A stretch of DNA of 64,000 nt, from the IMG/VR virus record IMGVR_UViG_3300044833_000182, positions 32,109-96,108 of that record; one strand, 5' to 3'. The notes under the pieces are model-generated. The model had not been told where the DNA came from. It made no database searches and worked only from the letters and a program-made list of their open reading frames with translations. Below, one piece after another: positions 12,746 to 64,000 of the stretch. Each line of letters begins with the position of its first letter. Position 1 is the first letter of the stretch. The translations under genes were made by a program, and so were the position numbers. The DNA is from a virus.

Positions 12746-13324
12746 ATGCTCGCCGCCGAAGAAGACGCCCTGATCCGCCTCCACTGGCCTCTGGCCCGCC
12801 TCCTGGCTGGCAAGCACGGTCGCGGCCGTCTGCGCTCCGACGACGGCGAGCGCCTCAGCGACGCCCTGCTTGGCCTGCTTCGCGCCGTCCGCACTCACCG
12901 CCCGCACTGGTTGCACCTGCACGCCTGGATCGAACGAAAGGTTAGAGGCGCTCTCCTCGACGGCGACCGCGAGCGGAGCGTGATGTCACGGTCACTGACG
13001 AAAGAAGTTGTCGCCGGCCGTCGCGAGGCCCTTCACCCTGCGACGAGACAGGAATTGCCTGATGGGATTTTCAGTCTGCCTGACTGCCGTGAGGAGGCTC
13101 CCGATGCTTCCCTCGTGCGCCGGGACCTGCTTGGCCGCCTGCTGCGCGACCTCAGCGTCAGCGAGCGCTCGACGGTTGAGCGCTATTACCTCGACGGTCT
13201 GACCCACGCGCAGATTGCAGCGGCGGACAGTCTCTCTCGGACGGGCGTCTTGCGGCGTCTCACTGATCTGATGCAGCAGTTGCGCGAGAAGGCCGCGCTG
13301 CTGGCCGAACGGGAGAAACGCTGA
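12746..13324 (+). CDS. Sigma-70-like transcription factor
   Basis: A 192-residue protein. The N-terminal half (HWPLARLLAGKHG, LSDALLGLLRAVRTH) resembles sigma region 2; the end (LSVSERSTVERYYLDGLTHAQIAAADSLSRTGVLRRL, in pieces) is a region-4 helix-turn-helix of the -35-binding type. Probably redirects RNA polymerase to phage promoters. The stop overlaps the next start (TGATG). Two other sigma-like proteins lie at 18341 and 49339. Confidence 0.75.
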   Translation: MLAAEEDALIRLHWPLARLLAGKHGRGRLRSDDGERLSDALLGLLRAVRTHRPHWLHLHAWIERKVRGALLDGDRERSVMSRSLTKEVVAGRREALHPATRQELPDGIFSLPDCREEAPDASLVRRDLLGRLLRDLSVSERSTVERYYLDGLTHAQIAAADSLSRTGVLRRLTDLMQQLREKAALLAEREKR

Positions 13325-16623: not shown

Positions 16624-17036
16624 TGATGACCCAGAACGATTGGGACCGCCTACAAACCATGATCCGAGAGGAGTTGGCGCGCGACGGCAAACTGCGGGTG
16701 GACGTGGACGTTCTCTCCGCCCTCATCGGCGAGAAGCTCGCCCCCGTCGTCGCCGGCGCCGTGGCCGTCATGCAGGAAATGCGCGAGCGTGACCGGAAGG
16801 CCGCAGGACACCGCGCCGCCCTGGAGCGAATCAGACTCCATGCCAACATCGGCGAACCATACTCCGCTGATGTCGCCCGGGAGGCGCTCGCCGGCACCAG
16901 CGAGAAACCAGCCGACCCCTGCCGCACCGCCCTGGAGCGCATTGCCCGTGAGTGCGGGGCGAGCCCGCAAGAGGCTACCGGCGTGCTGGCGGCGCGGATT
17001 GCAGGGGAAGCGCTGAAGCAGGAGGAAACGACGTGA
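16623..17036 (+). CDS. Hypothetical helical protein
   Basis: A 137-residue protein with two copies of ALERI(R/A)-type helices (residues about 63 and 103), suggesting internal duplication. The stop overlaps the next GTG start. Confidence 0.55.
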   Translation: MMTQNDWDRLQTMIREELARDGKLRVDVDVLSALIGEKLAPVVAGAVAVMQEMRERDRKAAGHRAALERIRLHANIGEPYSADVAREALAGTSEKPADPCRTALERIARECGASPQEATGVLAARIAGEALKQEETT

Positions 17037-17737
17037 TCCGCACCGTGGGAGACGAGTTGCTGCAAGCGATCCGCGAAGAACCTGGCGTCGATGCGCCGCG
17101 GATGATCTACGCCGACTGGCTGGAAGAGAACGGCGGGGACGCCGACCGCGCCGCCTTCATCCGCCTGTGCTGCATCAAGGGACGGTCCATGCTGCCCGTT
17201 GCGGCCGGGAAGATGCTCGACGCGCACGCGGACAAGTGGCTGCTGGAGCCGCTGGAGAAGCTGACCGGGCTGCCGATGATGGTTGGCTGGAGGAAGGGGC
17301 GCAGGTTGGCCTTGCGCGTCACAGGCGGGGGCAGCGTGAACGCCTGGGCAATCCTGAACTACCGTCGCGGGTTCGTCGCTGACGCGACGTTCTACACAAT
17401 CAAGCAGGCGTACTACCTCGCCGGGGCGGTTATGGCGATCGAGCCAACGGCCGTCTGCCGCTTCGCCCATTCGCAAGCATTACCGTGCGGTTCATGGCAT
17501 ATCGACTGCCGGACGTTCATGGAGCCGCCGCCACTCGTCCCGCGCCCGTGGGAGCGCTTTTACGCGGAGTGGTTCGACCTGCTTGCCGGGTTCGAGGGGA
17601 CTTCGGACGGCCACAAGCACTACATCCGCCAGTCGCGCGAGTCCCCGCAGCAGTGGCGCGACCGGGCGCATGGCGCCGCCGACGCGGCCTTGACGGCGCT
17701 GGCACGGCAGAAGGCGGCGATGCTGTCGGCCGATTGA
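17033..17737 (+). CDS. TIGR02996-type planctomycete protein
   Basis: A 234-residue protein from GTG 17033. IREEPGVDAPRMIYADWLEENGGDADRAAFIRL (residues about 12-44, in pieces) is the TIGR02996 repeat-companion signature, strongly expanded in Gemmata and relatives. This is the best host marker in the window, along with the copy at 37067. Function unknown. Confidence 0.8.
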   Translation: MIRTVGDELLQAIREEPGVDAPRMIYADWLEENGGDADRAAFIRLCCIKGRSMLPVAAGKMLDAHADKWLLEPLEKLTGLPMMVGWRKGRRLALRVTGGGSVNAWAILNYRRGFVADATFYTIKQAYYLAGAVMAIEPTAVCRFAHSQALPCGSWHIDCRTFMEPPPLVPRPWERFYAEWFDLLAGFEGTSDGHKHYIRQSRESPQQWRDRAHGAADAALTALARQKAAMLSAD

Positions 17738-36864: not shown

Positions 36865-37070
36865 AGCATCCCGCGCTCTACCAACCCGGCGACAAGGTCA
36901 AGGTGCTGTTCGCCTGTAAGTGGCGTCCGGCCACCGTGCTTCGCTCGTTCGAGTGGCCCGATGGGTGGGGCAACACCTGTACGTCCTACGTCGTGCGGCT
37001 GCGCGGCGGGACGGGTGAGAACAACGAGATTAGTTGCGGGCCGAACTCGCTGAGAAGGGGCAAACCATGA
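36861..37070 (+). CDS. Small beta-rich protein
   Basis: A 69-residue protein: YQPGDKVKVLF...WRPATVLRSFE resembles SH3/Tudor-like small barrels (PGDxVxV). ATG and stop overlap the neighbours. Function unknown. Confidence 0.55.
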   Translation: MKHPALYQPGDKVKVLFACKWRPATVLRSFEWPDGWGNTCTSYVVRLRGGTGENNEISCGPNSLRRGKP

Positions 37071-37789
37071 TCGCCACCACCGCTGACGCCTTGCTCCTTG
37101 ACGTGCTGCTCGCGCCGGAGGAAGACTGGCCGCGTTTGATCCTCGCCGACTGGCTGGCGGACAATGGGGACGTGGACCGCGGCGAATTCATCCGCTGCCA
37201 GATCAGCATGGAAGCGATGACGGACGACGAGTGCAGCCAGTGTCGGGCGCGGCGAACGGGCGGCCAGCACACGAACGGCCCCTGCCGGTGTTCCGCGAGG
37301 CTGAAGGCGGCGAAGCAGCGAGAGTACGGCCTTGCCTTTCGGCACATCGTCGAGTGGTCCGGGAACCTTCCCGGGCTGCTGTCGATCCCGGCCGAGAACC
37401 TGATGGAGTTCCGCGATCCCGCCCCGTGGAGGTTCCGCCGCGGCTTCATCGATCACGTCGACCTGCCCCTCGCGGCGTTCATGGCGGAGGGCGCGGCCGC
37501 GAAGATCTTCGCGGCGCACCCGGTGCGGAGCGTGCGGCTGGTGGACAGGGAGCCGCGGTGCTCCGGAACGATTCAGTTCGGCTGGTGGAACGACGACCGC
37601 GCTCCGGCTCAAGATCCTACCGATCCTGACGACCTTCCCGGAGGGCTCTGGCATCTGCTGCCCGCCGCGAACACTGGCAGCGGTTCCGGCTGGATTTGGT
37701 ACGCCACGACCGACGCCGCCCACGCGGACCTGTCGGCGGCGGCTGTGCGGTATGGGCGACGGGCCGCGGGACTGGAGGGCAAGCCATGA
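37067..37789 (+). CDS. TIGR02996-type planctomycete protein
   Basis: A 240-residue protein, ATG overlapping the previous stop. LAPEEDWPRLILADWLADNGDVDRGEFIRCQ (in parts, residues about 16-46) is the TIGR02996 signature, parallel to the copy at 17033. A Cys cluster (CSQCRAR ... CRCSAR) follows. Function unknown. Confidence 0.75.
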   Translation: MIATTADALLLDVLLAPEEDWPRLILADWLADNGDVDRGEFIRCQISMEAMTDDECSQCRARRTGGQHTNGPCRCSARLKAAKQREYGLAFRHIVEWSGNLPGLLSIPAENLMEFRDPAPWRFRRGFIDHVDLPLAAFMAEGAAAKIFAAHPVRSVRLVDREPRCSGTIQFGWWNDDRAPAQDPTDPDDLPGGLWHLLPAANTGSGSGWIWYATTDAAHADLSAAAVRYGRRAAGLEGKP

Positions 37790-49338: not shown

Positions 49339-49887
49339 ATGGCTCGCGCCGACCCATCCCCGACGCCGGAAAGGCTTCCCGAACAATCCTCCGTTCTCAG
49401 CGCCATTGACTATTTCAACCTCATTCGCCGAGAGATTCGGAAGCATCTGCACAGCCCGGGAGTGAACAGCGACGACCTCTTCGGGGAAGCCGAAGGGGCG
49501 GTCGCCGCCGGGCTGCTGACCTACGATCCGGCGAATCCCAAGCACGGCCCGCCCGCCGCCTATCTCACCGTCTGCATCAAGCACGCCCTCTCTCTGTGGT
49601 GCAAGAAGGAAGGGAAGCGCGTCGCCCGCGAGAAGCCGCTGTCAGAACACGCCGAGCCCGTCTCGACCGCCCCCGGCCCCGGCGAGGTCAGCCTGCGCGA
49701 TTCCTTCCTGGCGCTGATGGACCGTGTGCTGGCCGGCCGGCAACTCAAGGTGATGAAGCTGCTCGCGGACGGCTGGCTCGTCTGGGAGATCGCCCTTGAA
49801 CTGCACATCAAGGAAACCACGGTCAGCGTCCACAAGGGAAGGGCCATTGCCACCCTGCGGAAACATCCTTTTTTCCCGCTGGCGTAA
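49339..49887 (+). CDS. Sigma-70-like transcription factor
   Basis: A 182-residue protein. Residues 20-75 (FNLIRREIRKHL, DLFGEAEGAVAAGLLTYDP, AYLTVCIKHALSLW) match region 2; residues 125-175 (RQLKVMKLLADGWLVWEIALELHIKETTVSVHKGRAI, in parts) region 4. Being the first gene after a terminator/promoter pair it may switch on the late genes to its right. The long 120-base leader has no obvious gene. Confidence 0.75.
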   Translation: MARADPSPTPERLPEQSSVLSAIDYFNLIRREIRKHLHSPGVNSDDLFGEAEGAVAAGLLTYDPANPKHGPPAAYLTVCIKHALSLWCKKEGKRVAREKPLSEHAEPVSTAPGPGEVSLRDSFLALMDRVLAGRQLKVMKLLADGWLVWEIALELHIKETTVSVHKGRAIATLRKHPFFPLA

Positions 49888-53262: not shown

Positions 53263-54465
53263 ATGGTCATGCACCAGCGCTGCTATCGATTCCGTATGCA
53301 ACCCAACCGGAAGCAAGAACAGTCTCTTGCTCGTCTGGCAGGTGCGCGTCGATGGGTATGGAACTGGGCGCTTGCTCGGCGGAAGATGTACTTTGCCGAA
53401 CATGGCAAGGGTATTTCAGCGGCGCAGCTTTCCCGAGAATTGACGGCGCTGAAGGATCAGCCAGAAACGGCGTGGTTGCGCGAAGTCCACGCGCAGGCGC
53501 TGCAGCAGGTTTTGCGCGACTTGGACCGGGCGTTCGTCAACTTCTTCGAGCGCCGCGCCGGTTTTCCGCGATTCAAGAGCCGCAAGCGATCTATCCCGTC
53601 TTTCCGCATTCCGCAACACGTCAAGGTTGCGGACGGCAAGGTGTATGTTCCGAAGATCGGCCTCGTGCGAATTCGCCAATCACAGGCGGTCGAAGGCGAG
53701 AGCAAAAGTGCCACCTTCAAGCGGGACGCCTGCGGGAACTGGTACGTTACGCTGGTTGTTGCCTTTACCATGCCGGACGTTGCGTTGCCGCCGCCCGATC
53801 CGGAGAAGGTTGTCGGCATGGACGCTGGGCTGAAGGACTTCATCGTTCTGTCCAACGAGGAGCGCGTTCCGGCCCCGCAGTTTTACCGCAAAGCGCAGAA
53901 GAAACTACGTCGCGCCAACAAGGCATTTTCTCGACGGAAGCGAGGGAGCAAGCGGCGCGACAAGGCGCGACGACGGATTGCCCGCATTCAACAGCAGACG
54001 GCGAACAAGCGGCAGGACTTTCTGCACAAACTGAGTACGGACATTGTCAAACGGTTCGATGGCGTCTGCATCGAGGATCTGAACGTCAAGGGCCTTGCGA
54101 GAACAAAGCTGGCCAAATCGTTCACCGATGCCGCACACGGGGAGTTCAGACGGATGCTGGAGTACAAGTCGCTCTGGCATCGCAAGCATCTTGTTGTCGT
54201 GGGGCGATCCTTCCCCTCGACGAAGACTTGCAGTGCGTGCGGCGCGGTCAACGACAACCTCACGTTGAAGGATCGGCAGTGGATCTGTCCGGCGTGCGGG
54301 GCTATTCTGGATCGCGACCTCAACGCCTCTTGCAACATCAGAACGGAAGGACTGAGAATCTTGGCCGTGGGGCACACGGACAATAACGCTCGGGGAGTCT
54401 TTATAAGACCTTGCGCAAGCGGGGCAGTGGACGATGAACCGAGAATCCCGATGCCGCAAGGCTAG
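53263..54465 (+). CDS. tnpB: TnpB, RNA-guided nuclease of IS200/IS605 type
   Basis: A 400-residue protein (ATG 53263 or 53269). RuvC residues: D187 in GMDAGLK, E271 in CIEDLNV, D352 in DRDLNAS; zinc finger CSAC (323, 326) and CPAC (342, 345). All present, no stops. Its sequence differs greatly from the copy at 28063, so it is a separate acquisition. The guide RNA should overlap the 3' end near 54350-54500. No TnpA in the window. Confidence 0.85.
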   Translation: MVMHQRCYRFRMQPNRKQEQSLARLAGARRWVWNWALARRKMYFAEHGKGISAAQLSRELTALKDQPETAWLREVHAQALQQVLRDLDRAFVNFFERRAGFPRFKSRKRSIPSFRIPQHVKVADGKVYVPKIGLVRIRQSQAVEGESKSATFKRDACGNWYVTLVVAFTMPDVALPPPDPEKVVGMDAGLKDFIVLSNEERVPAPQFYRKAQKKLRRANKAFSRRKRGSKRRDKARRRIARIQQQTANKRQDFLHKLSTDIVKRFDGVCIEDLNVKGLARTKLAKSFTDAAHGEFRRMLEYKSLWHRKHLVVVGRSFPSTKTCSACGAVNDNLTLKDRQWICPACGAILDRDLNASCNIRTEGLRILAVGHTDNNARGVFIRPCASGAVDDEPRIPMPQG

Positions 54466-54791: not shown

Positions 54792-55349
54792 ATGTACAAA
54801 GAATATCTCGAATGCGAGAAGCCGCTGTTCCCCCTCCGCAACCCCATGCTGCGGAGCGGTGTCCAGCCGACGCCAACCGATATCCTCGGGCCGTTCTACA
54901 AGGCTGGCGCGCCGCTGGTCGCAAACGGCGTCATCGGCGAGGCCGATCAGTTCAACCGCCTGACCATCCACGTTTCCGGGCGTGTTCTATCGGTGGACGG
55001 CGAGCCCGTCGCCGGGGCCGTACTGGACGTGTGGCAGGCGGACAGCCACGGCGTGTACGACAACGACGGGTACAGACTGCGCGGCAAGGTCGAAGCAAAC
55101 TATGTCAATGTCGGTGGATACGAGTTTCAGACGGTCATGCCCGGGGACTACCAGATCGGCGACGAGCCGCCCGAGTTCCGCTGCGCCCACATCCACGTCA
55201 TCGTGACGGCGTCTGGGTTCAAGACGCTGACGACGCAACTGTACTTTGCTGATGACAAATACGATGCGACTGATCGCTGGTTCGACGCCAGGCGGGTGAT
55301 CCAGGTTCCGCACGGGACGTTCGATTTCGTCCTCGTGCCGGAGGGCTGA
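54792..55349 (+). CDS. Intradiol ring-cleavage dioxygenase-like protein
   Basis: A 185-residue protein. The fold and Fe(III) ligands of intradiol dioxygenases (catechol 1,2- or protocatechuate 3,4-dioxygenase) are in place: WQADSHGVYD (Y89), VMPGDYQIG (Y120), CAHIHVIV (H133, H135), then TTQLYF. It would split an aromatic diol with O2. No signal peptide and no other aromatic pathway gene nearby. It could be an accessory metabolic gene or a re-used structural fold. Confidence 0.7.
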   Translation: MYKEYLECEKPLFPLRNPMLRSGVQPTPTDILGPFYKAGAPLVANGVIGEADQFNRLTIHVSGRVLSVDGEPVAGAVLDVWQADSHGVYDNDGYRLRGKVEANYVNVGGYEFQTVMPGDYQIGDEPPEFRCAHIHVIVTASGFKTLTTQLYFADDKYDATDRWFDARRVIQVPHGTFDFVLVPEG

Positions 55350-56095: not shown

Positions 56096-57727
56096 GTGTG
56101 GAGGAATCTTCGCTGGCTGAAAATCCTGGCCCTCGCCGCGACGGTCGGACTGACAACGGCCGCCGCGCCAGCCCCGGAACCGCCGCTGTCGTCGCCGGCC
56201 GACGCGGTTGTCCTTGCCTGGAAGGACGCACAGACGCTGCCCGCAGACGATGCGCCCTTCATCCGCTACCTATGGGTGGCGACGCCCGGCGCGAAAGCCA
56301 CGGCGGTCTGGAGGCTGCATCAGAACCTCCTCTCCCGGTATTCCGAGATGACGGAGCCGGTCGAGATAACGCCCTGGCTGTGGCGCATCGACCTGCGCGA
56401 ACCGCAGTGGGAACCGGCGACCTGGGAGAAATCGGCGACTGCGGAGAACGAGGTTTACTTCCATCAGACGGTGACTCTCGCGGAAGACGCCGTCTTCGCG
56501 AAGGTCCGGCCGATCGGATTGAGGACGAAGGGAACGTTCAGCAAGGGCCGCAAGCCGGGGAGGTTCCTCCAGAGCAAGAAGGCTGGCGCGAAGGTGCAGC
56601 TCGCCGCGGCATGGCTGCCCGGCGAGACGGTCGTGAAGCTCCGCGAGTTGCTGTATACAGAATCGCCTGTTCTGAATGCGGAGTGGTTGTTCGTCCAGAG
56701 CGCCCGGCAGCGGAACCTCCTCAACGACGACAACCACGGGCTCGGCTACTACGACTTTTTGCGGCTGAAGGACCGCAGGGATTACTTCGAGCTGATCGAC
56801 CCGAAGTCAAACTTCGTCCGTGCCTCCGAACTGTTCGGCCGGGAGTTCCTGGCGGCTCTGGACAAGAGCGCAATCAGCCCGCAGAACCGGCAGTTTTTCC
56901 GGTATCAGAGCCGGGGCGGCGGGACATGGTCAACGCTTGACACGGACAAGCAGAAGGGTCGCGGGGTAGCGCTGAAAAACCTCCGCAGGCCGGACTCAGG
57001 CGCAAAGGACCAGACGGGCAGGTTCAAGCACAACACGGAGGAGTGGTACGGGCCGATGTCCAACGGCCTGCCGGCGGTGTTTCTCAGCGACGACAAGGGA
57101 GTGCGGCAGAACGTCGCCCCCGGAGATACGCATGGGCTGCACGATCGGAGCAGCCTGAACGAGAGCAACAGCCAGACGCTGCACATCGGGCTTTCCTGCT
57201 GGCAGTGTCACTATCCGAACGTGCTGAAGCCGTTCACCGACGACGTCCGCAAACAGTACGCCTTGGGGCAACTGACCTTCCTGGGAGCGAAGGACAAGAA
57301 GCAGGGGCTGGAGTTCCGCCAGCTCCTGATGAGTGATATCTACACGGCATTCGCGGACGATCAGGCGCTTTACGTCCGCGCCTTCGCGAAGGCCACGGTG
57401 ACGAGGGACCACCCGAAGGGGCTGGATGTCAAGACGGCGGTGAAGTGGTACAGCCGGTGGTTCCACGCCTACGCCACCGACGACGTAACGCTGGCCAGTT
57501 CGGCTCGCTGGTTGGGGGTGACGGAGGCATTGTGGTTGCGGGCCCTGCGGAATTACGCCCGGCCGCTGCCGAATGCGGCGATCCTCTCCGATGAGGCGCT
57601 GGGCAGGTTCTTGCTGAAGGAACCGCTTGGGATGACGCGGTTGACGTTCGAGGATTCATACTCGCTCGCCCAGGTTGTGCTGGCGCAAGAACGGGCGCGG
57701 ATGACGAAGGCAAAGGACAAACCATGA
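56096..57727 (+). CDS. Exported c-type cytochrome-like protein
   Basis: A 543-residue protein from GTG 56096. Residues 1-22 (WRNLRWLKILALAATVGLTTA) form a Sec signal peptide. SCWQCH (C368-H372) is a CxxCH heme-c attachment site in a C-terminal helical domain. The N-terminal 350 residues are not recognised. The stop overlaps the next gene, another heme-c protein (ATGA), so the two are probably made together and exported to the periplasm. Confidence 0.6.
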   Translation: MWRNLRWLKILALAATVGLTTAAAPAPEPPLSSPADAVVLAWKDAQTLPADDAPFIRYLWVATPGAKATAVWRLHQNLLSRYSEMTEPVEITPWLWRIDLREPQWEPATWEKSATAENEVYFHQTVTLAEDAVFAKVRPIGLRTKGTFSKGRKPGRFLQSKKAGAKVQLAAAWLPGETVVKLRELLYTESPVLNAEWLFVQSARQRNLLNDDNHGLGYYDFLRLKDRRDYFELIDPKSNFVRASELFGREFLAALDKSAISPQNRQFFRYQSRGGGTWSTLDTDKQKGRGVALKNLRRPDSGAKDQTGRFKHNTEEWYGPMSNGLPAVFLSDDKGVRQNVAPGDTHGLHDRSSLNESNSQTLHIGLSCWQCHYPNVLKPFTDDVRKQYALGQLTFLGAKDKKQGLEFRQLLMSDIYTAFADDQALYVRAFAKATVTRDHPKGLDVKTAVKWYSRWFHAYATDDVTLASSARWLGVTEALWLRALRNYARPLPNAAILSDEALGRFLLKEPLGMTRLTFEDSYSLAQVVLAQERARMTKAKDKP

Positions 57728-58602
57728 AACTGTTCGGCTTCTTCCTGATCCTCCTTGCCGGCCTGGCGCTGCTGATGCTCACGCCGCCGGCGGAGGCCGT
57801 CTGTTACACCAGCGGTTATTCCGTCCCGTCGTATGCGCCCAGCTACACCAGCTTCCGCAAGAGTTTCAGCGGCTACAGCAGTTACTCGACGGTTTATCCC
57901 GTCGCGCAGTTCGTCGGCGTGCCGATCCCGATTTTTGGCAGCGTGTACATCGGCCCGACCGGCGTTGCCAGCGCCGCGGCGGCGATTGGACAGGGCACCG
58001 GCCCGGTCGCCCAGCAAGCCGCCGCCGTGCAGGCCGCGCCTGCCCCTGTTGCTCCCGCTCCCGTAGCTGCCGCCCCGCAGCCAAACAACGACATGCTCAC
58101 GCAAGTCCTCGCCGTGGTGAAGCAGATCGCCGCGAAGCAGGACGCACACGGTTACGCGATCAAGAGCCTGGCGGACCGGCAGGACCGGCACGAGCAGCGG
58201 CTGGCAGCGGTGGAAGCGGCGATGAACCTTCCTCCGCCCCCACCCACTCCGCCTCTTCCACCGCCGCCCATGAAGGAGGCCGCCCCGGACGAAGCAGCCG
58301 TGCCGCCTGCGCCCCCTGTCAAGCTCGACGCCGCCCTGACGATCGCCAACCGTTCCTGTGCCGCTTGCCACCTGAAGGGCAACCACAAGCGAGCGGATTC
58401 TGACGGCTTCGTGCTGCTGGAAGCGAAGGACAGGCGGACCGCGCTGACCGACAAGCAGCGGAAGAACTACCTGTCGCACATCAGCGGGGGCAAGATGCCG
58501 CCCCCGGACAACGCGCTGAGCATCCCGCCGCTGACCGCTGACGAGAAGAAGGTTCTGACTGCCGATCTCGACAATTACCCGATCAAGCCCGAGGCGAAGT
58601 AA
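57724..58602 (+). CDS. Exported c-type cytochrome with coiled-coil stalk
   Basis: A 292-residue protein. Signal peptide MKLFGFFLILLAGLALLML...AEA; Tyr/Ser-rich segment; Ala/Pro linker; coiled coil (about 130-170); Pro-rich linker; then a small cytochrome c domain: SCAACH (C212-H216) and GGKMPPP (Met 258, likely axial ligand), ending LTADEKKVLTADL as in planctomycete cytochromes. An electron-transfer module on a stalk. Confidence 0.7.
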   Translation: MKLFGFFLILLAGLALLMLTPPAEAVCYTSGYSVPSYAPSYTSFRKSFSGYSSYSTVYPVAQFVGVPIPIFGSVYIGPTGVASAAAAIGQGTGPVAQQAAAVQAAPAPVAPAPVAAAPQPNNDMLTQVLAVVKQIAAKQDAHGYAIKSLADRQDRHEQRLAAVEAAMNLPPPPPTPPLPPPPMKEAAPDEAAVPPAPPVKLDAALTIANRSCAACHLKGNHKRADSDGFVLLEAKDRRTALTDKQRKNYLSHISGGKMPPPDNALSIPPLTADEKKVLTADLDNYPIKPEAK

Positions 58603-58659: not shown

Positions 58660-58902
58660 ATGCACTTTCGTAACGGCAGGGTTGCCCAAAACGGCGACAA
58701 GGTCGTACTACTGCCGGAGAGTTGGGGTTATCCGGTTGTCGGCATCCTGTACGACGCTGTGGCCGGGAACGATTGCTGCAACGGCAGGCTGGCGCCGATC
58801 AGCAACAGCGATCCCATGCCGAACCTCGCTGAATGCCTGCATCTCGACGACGTGAAGGCGGCGGTGGCGGGTTCGGAGGCGTGTGCCAAGAAGAAGCCAT
58901 GA
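58660..58902 (+). CDS. Conserved phage protein (FRNGRVAQNGDKV family)
   Basis: An 80-residue protein: RNGRVAQNGDKVVLL, VVGILYDAVAGNDCCNGRLAPI and LAECLHLDDV are the blocks of a phage hypothetical family, usually in the accessory part upstream of terminase. AAGGAG precedes the ATG. Confidence 0.65.
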   Translation: MHFRNGRVAQNGDKVVLLPESWGYPVVGILYDAVAGNDCCNGRLAPISNSDPMPNLAECLHLDDVKAAVAGSEACAKKKP

Positions 58903-59141
58903 CGCAGCCGCACACAATCATGGTCTTCGACAGATGCCAGACGCCCGGCTGCAAGTGTTCGCTCCTGTCCGTCCTCGAAGGCATCCGCGGGACGTGTACG
59001 ACGTGCTGGTTCGAGAGCCAGCCGCCCCGCATACGACGGTCGATGAACGCCCTGATGGCTGCGGCGTTCGACGAAGACGGGACGAAAGCGAAGGCGGCGG
59101 CGCTGGATACGCTGGAGAGGATGAGGGCAACGAAACGATGA
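58899..59141 (+). CDS. Small Cys-rich protein
   Basis: An 80-residue protein: CQTPGCKCS and CTTCWF suggest zinc binding. ATG overlaps the previous stop, and the stop overlaps the next ATG. Confidence 0.55.
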   Translation: MTQPHTIMVFDRCQTPGCKCSLLSVLEGIRGTCTTCWFESQPPRIRRSMNALMAAAFDEDGTKAKAAALDTLERMRATKR

Positions 59142-59389
59142 TGCCGCGATACCACCCGACCGTCGCCGTGCTGGCCAGCGATGTCAATGCCGTGACGCAT
59201 CACGCCCCCTTCGGCGATCAGGCGGCGCGGTACGAGGACAACCGCAAGGCGGTCCTTGGCTTGATGGTCTTGCTCCGGGGGAACTGCCCGGCGTCGCCCG
59301 AACTGGAAACCGCCCTGAATCGGCTGCGTGAGTGTCTTATGTGGAGTAACGCATCCATCGCATGCAACGAGAAAGAAGATAAACAATGA
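59138..59389 (+). CDS. acb2: Acb2/Tad1-hairpin-type cyclic nucleotide sponge
   Basis: An 83-residue protein. THHAPFGDQAARYEDNR, then CPASPELETALNRLRECL and MWSNASIACNE match the Acb2 family pattern (YHPPKGDQxxRY...CPxSxE...MWANAxIARNE). Acb2 proteins assemble into hexamers that bind the cyclic di- and trinucleotides of CBASS (and some Thoeris signals), blocking host immunity. All pattern positions are kept except small changes. Clear homology by eye; activity inferred. Confidence 0.75.
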   Translation: MMPRYHPTVAVLASDVNAVTHHAPFGDQAARYEDNRKAVLGLMVLLRGNCPASPELETALNRLRECLMWSNASIACNEKEDKQ

Positions 59390-59907
59390 AGACTTTCGCA
59401 TTGTTCGCCGCCCTGTTCTGCTTGACGCTGTTCGCCGTCCCCTCCCAGGCCGGCAAGTTCGCGAAGGGTGGAGGCGGCAAGGGGGCCGGCGCCCGGACGG
59501 CTGGGGCGAAGGCTGCTGCGCCTGGGGCCTTTCGCCGCGGCAGCGGGTTCCGGCACAATGGCTACTTCGCGGGCAACAGCATCTACGGCCGCGGCTACTA
59601 CGTCAACGGGCTGTACGTCGGCGCGACCGCCCAGCTTTACGCGGCCTACACGGCTCCTTCCGCGACGATTTACGCCGACCCGGCGCCAGCCCAGGCGTTC
59701 GCCGCCCCCGCGCCGGCATACGTCGCGCCTCCGCCGCAGCCAGCGGTGTACTACGCGCCCGCTCCCGTGGTCTACTACTCGACCCCGGCGTATTACTCCG
59801 TTCCAACTTACTACAGCCCGGCCTACTACGGCGGCGGCTACGGCGGCTTCCGCAGTTATGGCTACGGCGGAGGGTTCCGCGGAGGGTTCCGCGGCGGGCG
59901 GCGGTAA
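59386..59907 (+). CDS. Exported Gly/Tyr-rich protein
   Basis: A 173-residue protein with signal peptide MKTFALFAALFCLTLFAVPSQA, a Gly/Lys/Ala-rich section, a short ordered part (NSIYGRGYYVNGLYVGATA) and a Tyr/Pro/Gly-rich end (PAYYGGGYGG, FRGGFRGGRR). Resembles surface or cell-wall-associated proteins. ATG overlaps the previous stop. Confidence 0.6.
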   Translation: MKTFALFAALFCLTLFAVPSQAGKFAKGGGGKGAGARTAGAKAAAPGAFRRGSGFRHNGYFAGNSIYGRGYYVNGLYVGATAQLYAAYTAPSATIYADPAPAQAFAAPAPAYVAPPPQPAVYYAPAPVVYYSTPAYYSVPTYYSPAYYGGGYGGFRSYGYGGGFRGGFRGGRR

Positions 59908-60543: not shown

Positions 60544-61077
60544 GTGTGGGTCAAGTGCGACAAGTGCGGGCGGCATTACGACGATTACAGCCGGTGGACG
60601 ATCTGTCCGCACGGCCCGCTCGGCTTCGCCCCTGACGACTACTGCCCGCACTGCGACACGCTGAAGACCATTCACGGCCTCTGTCGTCATCAGAAGGAGC
60701 AAACCAGTGCATCCAGCGGTGTCCCACGTTCTGAAGTTCTTCAGCTTCACGCATTTGCCGCCCCATCTTCAGGAGGTGTCGCGGCCGTTCGCGGAACTGG
60801 CGAAGCAGGTGGCGGAACGCGCCCCGGACAATCAGGAGACGACGGTGGCGCTGAGAAAACTCTTGGAAGCAAAAGATTCGGCGGTAAGGGCAACACTCTG
60901 AGACGCCTTTACCTGTGGTTCCTCGCTCGCTTCCGTTTGTCGCCGGACGCCGTGTGCGAAATGTCCAAAGGGATGGGATTGGTGGACTACCATGATTATC
61001 CCGATGACGAATTCGGCAAGCCGGACCATTTCGTTGAACTGACGTGCAAGAGGTGTGGAAAGAGGTTCCGGATCTGA
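60544..61077 (+). CDS. 177-codon ORF with zinc units at both ends, hosting a nested gene
   Basis: From GTG 60544 (after GGGGAGGG) the first 55 residues (VWVKCDKCGRHYDDYSRW, CPHCDTLKTIH) are a phage zinc-ribbon protein. No stop follows; the frame runs through low-complexity sequence, where the gene 60707 lies in another frame, to a C-terminal zinc domain (LTCKRCGKRFRI). Either a lost stop codon or a genuine long protein. The last 59 codons probably form a separate gene (60898). Confidence 0.5.
   Translation: MWVKCDKCGRHYDDYSRWTICPHGPLGFAPDDYCPHCDTLKTIHGLCRHQKEQTSASSGVPRSEVLQLHAFAAPSSGGVAAVRGTGEAGGGTRPGQSGDDGGAEKTLGSKRFGGKGNTLRRLYLWFLARFRLSPDAVCEMSKGMGLVDYHDYPDDEFGKPDHFVELTCKRCGKRFRI
60707..60901 (+). 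CDS. Second Acb2/Tad1-type hairpin protein, nested
   Basis: A 64-residue protein from GTG 60707 with AAGGAG 7 bases before it. FFSFTHLPPHLQEVSRPFAEL, then TTVALRKLLEAKDSAVRA, is a common phage helical-hairpin protein that I place in the Acb2/Tad1 hairpin superfamily. It is entirely inside the 60544 ORF in another frame and has better coding character there. Stop overlaps the CTG start of the next gene. Confidence 0.6.
   Translation: MHPAVSHVLKFFSFTHLPPHLQEVSRPFAELAKQVAERAPDNQETTVALRKLLEAKDSAVRATL
60898..61077 (+). CDS. Phage zinc-finger protein, probable CTG start
   Basis: A 59-residue protein. RRLYLWFLARF at the start, then DYHDYPDDEFGKPDHFVELTC and KRCGKRF match a widespread phage family that begins with MRRL. 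No ATG or GTG is available there; CTG 60898 overlaps the TGA of the previous gene (CTGA) as ATGA does elsewhere. The alternative start ATG 60961 would lose half of the conserved protein. Confidence 0.55.
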   Translation: MRRLYLWFLARFRLSPDAVCEMSKGMGLVDYHDYPDDEFGKPDHFVELTCKRCGKRFRI

Positions 61078-62381: not shown

Positions 62382-62891
62382 ATGGGCGGCAAAACCACAA
62401 ACACCACAAAGGCAAAGCCAAAAAAGAAGACGCATCCTTGGCAACCGAAGTTCCTGGCCGCGCTGAAGAAGACCGGCAACATCTGCAAGTCTGCTAAAGC
62501 GGCTGGCGTTGATCGAGGGACCGTTTACGACTGGCGGGACGCCGACGAGGCAAACGCGGAAGCGATGACAGAGGCGATCTCTCACGCCAAGGAAGACTCG
62601 ACAGACGCCCTGGAAGCGGAGGCGGAGCGGCGGGCGAAGAAGGCAAGCGACGTGCTCTTGATCTTCTTGCTGAAGTCGCGGAAGCCGGACGTGTATCGGG
62701 AGGTTCATCGGCATGAGCACAGCGGCCCCGGCGGTGGGGCAATCACCCATGAGCAGCGAATCACCTTCGCGGAATTCGAGCGACTACCTCTCGAAGACCG
62801 CGTCCGCATCCTTCGCGCGCAGGTACTCCTACCGGGTGGGGATCGAAACGGGCGAACTGTTCCGCCAGGAAATGAGCGTGTGCCGGGATGA
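62382..62891 (+). CDS. terS: Terminase small subunit-like protein
   Basis: A 169-residue protein: basic start (TKAKPKKKTHPW), HTH FLAALKKTGNICKSAKAAGVDRGTVYDW and a helical oligomerisation part (DALEAEAERRAKK, DVLLIFLLKSRKPDVYRE). It would recognise phage DNA for packaging. The end (about 130-169) overlaps the large subunit frame; GTG 62352 is an alternative start. Confidence 0.7.
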   Translation: MGGKTTNTTKAKPKKKTHPWQPKFLAALKKTGNICKSAKAAGVDRGTVYDWRDADEANAEAMTEAISHAKEDSTDALEAEAERRAKKASDVLLIFLLKSRKPDVYREVHRHEHSGPGGGAITHEQRITFAEFERLPLEDRVRILRAQVLLPGGDRNGRTVPPGNERVPG

Positions 62892-64000
62892 CCCGGTCCA
62901 CTTCATCTCGCAGTGGTGCTACACCTGTGACCCGCGCGACCGCCGCGTGTGGCCGCTGGACCCCTTCCCCAAGCAGGAGGCGTTCGTTCGCTGGCTGCAA
63001 GAACGGGAGCGGACGCAGACGGACGGACTGGCCGACAAGAGCCGGGACATGGGGGTAACGTGGTTCTGCTCCGCCTACGCCTTGCAAGGCTGGCTCTTTC
63101 GCTCCGCGTTCTCGTGCGGGTTCGGCTCGCGCAAGCTGGAACTGGTCGATACGCTTGGGGACCTCGACAGCATCTTCGAGAAGGTCCGCTTCATGCTCTA
63201 TTCGCTGCCAGCGTGGATGCTGCCCGAAGGATTCCGCCGTGTCGCGCATGACAAGGAGGGCGTCCTTGTCAACCCGGCAAACGGTTCGAGTATCAAGGGC
63301 GAAGGAGGAAATAACATCGGCCGCGGCGGGCGGTCCTCGATTTACTTTGTGGACGAGGCGGCCTACATCGAGCGTCCCGAGTCGATCGAGCGCAGCCTTG
63401 CGGAGAACACCAACTGCCGGATCGACGTGAGCACGCCAAACGGCCCCGGCAATCCGTTCGCGACCAAGAGGTTTTCGGGGAAGGTCAGCGTCTTCACCCT
63501 TCATTGGAAGGACGATCCGCGGAAGGGCGAGGAATGGTACGCCGAGAAGAAGAGGACCAAAGACCCCGTCACCGTCGCTCAGGAAATCGATATCGACTAC
63601 TCGGCGTCCGTCGAGGGCATCTGCATCCCCGCCGTCTGGGTCCGCGCCGCCGTGGAATTGAAATTGCCGATGGGCGCCCCCATTGTCGCCGGCCTGGACA
63701 TCGCCGAGTTTGGCGCTGACCGCTGCGTCCTGATCCCCCGCGCCGGCCCCTTTGTCCTTCCCCCCGTCGATTGGGGACAGTGCAACACGACGGAGACGGC
63801 GCACCGGGCAAGGGAGATTGCGCAGAAACAGGAGGCAAAAACGGTGTGGTTCGACGTTGGGGGAGTCGGGGCTGGAATCCGGGGGACGTGGGACAGTAGC
63901 GAGCAGAGGCTCCCTTTCGACGCGGTCGCCGTGAATGCGGGAGAGTCGCCGACCTTGACACGCTGGCCGGACGGGAAAACCTCGAAGGAGCGGTTTGTAA
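62713..64000 (+). CDS. terL: Terminase large subunit, 3' end outside window
   Basis: The frame is open to the window edge. ADKSRDMGVTW is the Walker A-type loop of phage packaging motors, SIYFVDEAAY the Walker B with catalytic Glu, DVSTPNGPGNPF the coupling motif, and VAGLDIAEFGADR the first Asp of the C-terminal nuclease that cuts concatemers. Start is unsure: ATG 62713 and 62749 overlap the small subunit widely; ATG 62872 gives a short overlap but drops RRYSYRVGIETGELFRQE, which looks conserved. Confidence 0.85.
   Translation, partial: MSTAAPAVGQSPMSSESPSRNSSDYLSKTASASFARRYSYRVGIETGELFRQEMSVCRDDPVHFISQWCYTCDPRDRRVWPLDPFPKQEAFVRWLQERERTQTDGLADKSRDMGVTWFCSAYALQGWLFRSAFSCGFGSRKLELVDTLGDLDSIFEKVRFMLYSLPAWMLPEGFRRVAHDKEGVLVNPANGSSIKGEGGNNIGRGGRSSIYFVDEAAYIERPESIERSLAENTNCRIDVSTPNGPGNPFATKRFSGKVSVFTLHWKDDPRKGEEWYAEKKRTKDPVTVAQEIDIDYSASVEGICIPAVWVRAAVELKLPMGAPIVAGLDIAEFGADRCVLIPRAGPFVLPPVDWGQCNTTETAHRAREIAQKQEAKTVWFDVGGVGAGIRGTWDSSEQRLPFDAVAVNAGESPTLTRWPDGKTSKERFV

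Follow-up and report, generated by a model that had tools for sequence, protein, structure and literature searches.

Does a small open reading frame in the genome of a presumed planctomycete phage encode an Acb2-type sponge for cyclic oligonucleotides, and which ligands would such a sponge hold? The question is raised by positions 59138-59389 of the window, by which we mean the whole stretch of DNA that was analysed, 64 kb out of a 96,108-base IMG/VR virus record. An Acb2 sequence pattern had been pointed out there and read as a sponge against CBASS or Thoeris signalling, with the additional idea that THH instead of TYH in the first helix might alter ligand choice.

The acb2-like gene, its operon and the phage

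The open reading frame is present at the predicted place, running on the + strand from ATG 59138 to TGA 59389, and its 83-aa product contains all of the quoted motifs: THH (residues 20-22), HAPFGDQAARY (22-32), CPASPE (50-55) and MWSNASIACNE (68-78). The full protein sequence and the features of the locus are as follows.

MMPRYHPTVAVLASDVNAVTHHAPFGDQAARYEDNRKAVLGLMVLLRGNCPASPELETALNRLRECLMWSNASIACNEKEDKQ*

58660..58902, + strand: upstream gene, 80 aa; no family match in Pfam or PHROG
58899..59141, + strand: upstream gene, 80 aa, cysteine-rich and zinc-ribbon-like by eye; a search for family matches found none
59138..59389, + strand: acb2-like gene, 83 aa, with the Acb2/Tad1 hairpin domain (PF24729) at residues 21-76
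59198..59200, + strand: codon CAT of His21, at the cyclic-dinucleotide-stacking Tyr position (T4 Vs.4 Y8, PaMx33 Y11)
59243..59245, + strand: codon of Arg36, family-invariant, at +15 from the Tyr position, a spacing as for T4 K23 and PaMx33 K26
59386..59907, + strand: downstream gene, 173 aa, with an apparent signal peptide and a Gly/Tyr-rich body; no family match of the secreted-looking product in Pfam or PHROG

The stop end of the cysteine-rich gene overlaps the acb2-like start by 4 bases, and the downstream gene begins within the last 4 bases of the acb2-like gene, an arrangement on both sides like that of a tightly packed phage operon. Since the overlap with the upstream gene sets the start, we place it at 59138; the in-frame extension 5' of this ATG is Arg/Gly-rich and overlaps another gene.

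The attribution to a planctomycete phage is supported indirectly by the following features.

17033-17737 and 37067-37789, + strand: two proteins with the TIGR02996 domain, which is named after Gemmata obscuriglobus
62382..62891, + strand: terminase small subunit (PHROG_4044)

The terminase small subunit, just past which terminase large subunit similarity was found near 63480-63640, identifies the record as that of a tailed phage, and the two TIGR02996 proteins suggest that its host is probably a planctomycete. Other genes of the window were noted in passing. Two overlapping genes at 56096-57727 and 57724-58602 (both +) encode apparently secreted products with CxxCH haem motifs (CWQCH, CAACH), which resemble c-type cytochrome proteins of host type, here carried by a phage; for the product of the former, matches were confined to a single uncultured phage of 595 kb (23% identity) and, weakly, to 3 of 199 Planctomycetota genomes. 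An intradiol-type dioxygenase domain is found at 54792-55349 (+; PF00775 Dioxygenase_C, 80.9 bits), an IS200/IS605-type TnpB at 53386-54465 (+; guided_TnpB, 303 bits) and sigma-70/ECF-like sigma factor proteins at 49339-49887 and 12746-13324 (both +), the last two under their curated cut-offs.

Assignment to the Acb2/Tad1 hairpin family

The family assignment of the original prediction is borne out by profile comparison, in which the protein matches Pfam PF24729 (Acb2_Tad1_hairpin) with 38.1 bits at a curated cut-off of 27 and PHROG_1454 at 5e-13. The same Pfam model is matched by the proven Acb2 of phage T4 (Vs.4, 71 bits) and by 76 of 76 aligned family members. Against a profile built from 75 relatives, with the window protein left out, the protein reached 82.7 bits, and 2000 shuffles of its own sequence gave 7.7 bits at most. 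A T4-type Acb2 profile recovered 67 of the 80 relatives of the window protein along with 5 further matches among 6007 six-frame ORFs. Direct alignment of the family with T4-type Acb2 by hhalign gave 59.6% probability over the last 25 columns only, which correspond to the second long helix, where LRECLMWSNAS of the window protein pairs with LKEASMWACRA and the motif LRECLMW/LKEASMW is thus shared. Full-length identity to T4 Acb2 (88 aa, compared with 83 aa here) is low, and the Pseudomonas-phage Acb2 (p26, PDB 8H2J/8H2X/8IXZ) has diverged to a degree where no direct sequence match is found. Single-sequence search of the PDB with the window protein returned chance hits only, and PADLOC holds no model matching it. 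A reading as ExsE, suggested by a sub-threshold NCBIfam match of 19.6 bits with a cut-off of 35, was rejected.

Relatives are numerous. With the window protein alone, a pattern search in IMG/VR found none, a five-sequence alignment query yielded at least 433 loci, and with one relative as query 476 phage records matched under a loose limit; 61 bacterial contigs of many phyla also carry family members, probably for the most part in prophages. Direct relatives of PHROG_1454 type in Paenibacillus, Gordonia and Tunturiibacter phages share 37-46% identity over 59-62 residues and, in contrast to the window protein, keep TYH. Most of these are annotated as hypothetical or as 'phosphomannomutase', the latter label on Acb2-family proteins of Paenibacillus and Brevibacillus phages (records H10-H17 and H22) being an apparent misannotation. 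The family is large and widespread, so the window member is ordinary in kind, though new and divergent; little is known of the family in planctomycete phages, abundant as it is overall.

Predicted fold

An AlphaFold2 monomer model computed from a 60-sequence alignment places helices at residues 9-19, 28-49 and 54-77 with a mean pLDDT of 90.6, and no beta-strand is predicted. One short and two long helices are the layout published for the Acb2 protomer (PMC10419184, PMC12043709) and are shared, as predicted here, with T4 Acb2, in which the linker between the long helices is longer. THH, present as claimed, does not lie in the first helix but just after it. In Foldseek, T4 Vs.4 with bound cGAMP (7uq2) ranked 2nd to 4th (probability up to 0.91, TM 0.60, E 1.4), and a structural second look gave it a Z of 6.6 with an rmsd of 5.1 over 66 residues, tied with unrelated hairpins. 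These structural matches are statistically weak, helical hairpins being a common fold. Family membership is therefore a claim carried by the sequence profiles, which the fold evidence supports and does not prove.

Tad1 (7UAV, 8KBB) shares the C-terminal helical hairpin and falls in the same Pfam family, so that a Tad1-like gcADPR sponge directed against Thoeris has to be weighed here. The family profile matches Tad1 PDB chains weakly (E about 0.01), and Tad1 hairpins also appeared in the structural second look (Z 5.6). However, Tad1 carries an N-terminal beta-sheet domain (PMC12043709) that is absent from the 83-aa protein, which is free of predicted strands, and the in-frame extension upstream of ATG 59138 is Arg/Gly-rich and overlaps another gene. 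Binding of gcADPR has been described for Tad1 and Tad2, not for Acb2 (PMC12043709). We consider a Tad1-like function very improbable. Of the proposed targets, Thoeris is not supported, while profile matches, sequence motifs and the predicted architecture all speak for membership in the Acb2-type family.

The ligand site

Position 1 of the PF24729 profile corresponds to T4 residue 7, so position 2 is Y8; its counterpart in the window protein is residue 21. T4 Y8 and K23 align with Pseudomonas-phage Y11 and K26, respectively, and His21 and Arg36 of the window protein occupy these Tyr and Lys positions, the equivalence of Arg36 with T4 K23 being taken from its spacing of 15 residues from the Tyr position. 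The same spacing separates Y11 from K26, and the basic residue is thus equally spaced in both studied proteins. The Tyr/Lys pair comprises known ligand contacts of the studied Acb2s and does not define the family; its changes bear on ligand choice, not on fold family. Among 75 aligned relatives, the Tyr position is Tyr in 72, His in two (L017, L071) and Phe in one, whereas Arg36 is invariant in the window-type branch, where Arg is the norm. T4 Acb2 further differs in its stacking Phe82, at the position of which both the window protein (Ala75) and the Pseudomonas-phage Acb2 have Ala. In a planctomycete genome (G294), a PF24729 protein near position 1501 (L161) apparently has Arg at the stacking-Tyr position (YERHAPCGD).

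The idea that THH alters ligand choice is sensible, since His stands in place of the Tyr through which the characterised Acb2s contact cyclic dinucleotides. With the stacking Tyr changed to His and the Lys position occupied by Arg, cyclic dinucleotide binding is probably altered, and mutation Y8A in T4 Acb2 is reported to disrupt it (PMC12657218). His21 may still stack on bases, and binding of cyclic trinucleotides could persist, because the trinucleotide site of Acb2 has been published as separate from and independent of the dinucleotide site (PMC12043709).

The substitution does not stand alone. Four otherwise conserved positions are changed in a way seen in 0 of 75 relatives (F19V, I35N, A39V, A43M), and Y21H, R54P, S57E and T61N are further departures, from which the function of the protein may be altered or decaying. 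The His21 codon CAT is a single base away from the Tyr codon TAT, and an assembly error is possible for this base alone, but the protein also departs from the conserved residues at the four positions above. The departures, together with the effect of Y8A, would also fit a decayed or repurposed Acb2 relative, a protein with the hairpin fold in which cyclic-nucleotide binding was lost or never present. Yet the reading frame is intact and lies in a packed operon, His at the Tyr position recurs in the two relatives mentioned, and none of the eight residues that are invariant in the 60-sequence alignment has been lost (H22, P24, Q28, R36, M68, N71, I74, A75), which makes decay or repurposing quite unlikely in our estimation.

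A functional sponge could also owe its His21 to selection by the host. Panoptes-type guards act against phages in which Acb2 takes away decoy dinucleotides; Acb2 triggers Panoptes, and T2 reportedly carries a mutation that probably disrupts the dinucleotide site (PMC12657218). As a special case of the sponge reading, the protein might thus have been retuned off cyclic dinucleotides and now act mainly on cyclic trinucleotides, in keeping with the identity of the changed residue and with the independence of the two sites. However, base stacking is still open to His, a one-base difference in a metagenome-derived record could be an error, and Panoptes in the host would have to be assumed; we regard such retuning as fairly unlikely. 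The likeliest outcome, judged from the sequence, remains a sponge that works but binds dinucleotides in an altered way.

A second small protein downstream

A six-frame scan of the window with the Acb2-like family profile gave one further match (E 7e-4), about 1.3 kb downstream of the acb2-like gene.

60707..60901, + strand: PHROG_1761/5120 protein, function unassigned, 64 aa, with the pattern FxxxHLPxxLQxVSxPF...ExTVALRKLLEAKDxAVRA

This protein also matches PHROG_1454 weakly and has no match in Pfam, PF24729 included. Its family, which we refer to by the motif LRKLLEAKD, comprises 318 phage records and at least 564 IMG/VR loci. Alignment with the Acb2-like family by hhalign gave 90.9% (E 1.2e-6, 51 columns) in a pairwise comparison free of database correction, a stronger result than that of the Acb2-like family with T4 Acb2. 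The Acb2-like profile finds 74 of 81 LRKLLEAKD members with 12 other matches among 9441 ORFs, and reciprocally the LRKLLEAKD profile finds 67 of 80 Acb2-like members. Reversed and column-shuffled control profiles found no or one LRKLLEAKD member, but a control with the profile halves swapped still found 30, and the similarity is therefore concentrated in the turn and the second long helix. The predicted model (pLDDT 96.2) has one short and two long helices in the order of the acb2-like protein, and 95% of LRKLLEAKD members carry an aromatic residue (Y, F or W) where the alignment places the Tyr position.

Foldseek with this model returned no Acb2 among its matches, and neither the T4-Acb2 profile nor hhalign with it found an LRKLLEAKD member, so the link runs only via the window-type family. 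Convergence of the two families is possible, and we consider shared ancestry probable from the profile comparisons. A sponge function of the PHROG_1761/5120 protein would be a tentative suggestion, with the chances well against it. Equally doubtful is the wider idea that the family represents an overlooked, far-diverged lineage of the Acb2/Tad1 hairpin superfamily and forms a second sponge class for nucleotides, possibly splitting signals with the acb2-like gene. The two families were not seen together in the flanks (3-5 kb) of 160 other loci, and their proximity in this phage is therefore no evidence of a joint system.

Proposed function and implications

We propose that the acb2-like gene likely encodes a divergent cyclic-oligonucleotide sponge of the Acb2 family, as judged from its sequence. 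In our model, the 83-aa protein would fold as one short and two long antiparallel helices, and its copies would form a compact homo-hexamer like T4 and PaMx33 Acb2; such a hexamer of three-helix protomers has been reported for the Pseudomonas-phage protein, whereas the window protein is known from its sequence and a monomer model. By analogy with the family, the hexamer would bind CBASS-type cyclic oligonucleotides without cutting them, host effectors would stay off, and the infected cell would live long enough for the phage to replicate. The His/Arg copy may depend to a greater extent on the cyclic-trinucleotide site, which in Acb2 has been described as separate. SMODS nucleotidyltransferases, the synthase type of CBASS, occur in 19 of 294 sampled Planctomycetota genomes, and the phylum therefore has a signal that such a sponge could bind, a possible target for this phage; PF24729 proteins occur in 13 of the 294.

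A recent paper describes Acb2 as relatively rare and confined to certain phages (PMC11722364). In contrast, phages of many phyla commonly carry PF24729 hairpins as stand-alone proteins, which are mostly unannotated. If the PHROG_1761 link is true, a large set of unknown phage proteins would become testable as anti-defence sponges. A diverged Acb2 with a natural change at a dinucleotide-contact residue could moreover help to show how sponge specificity evolves.
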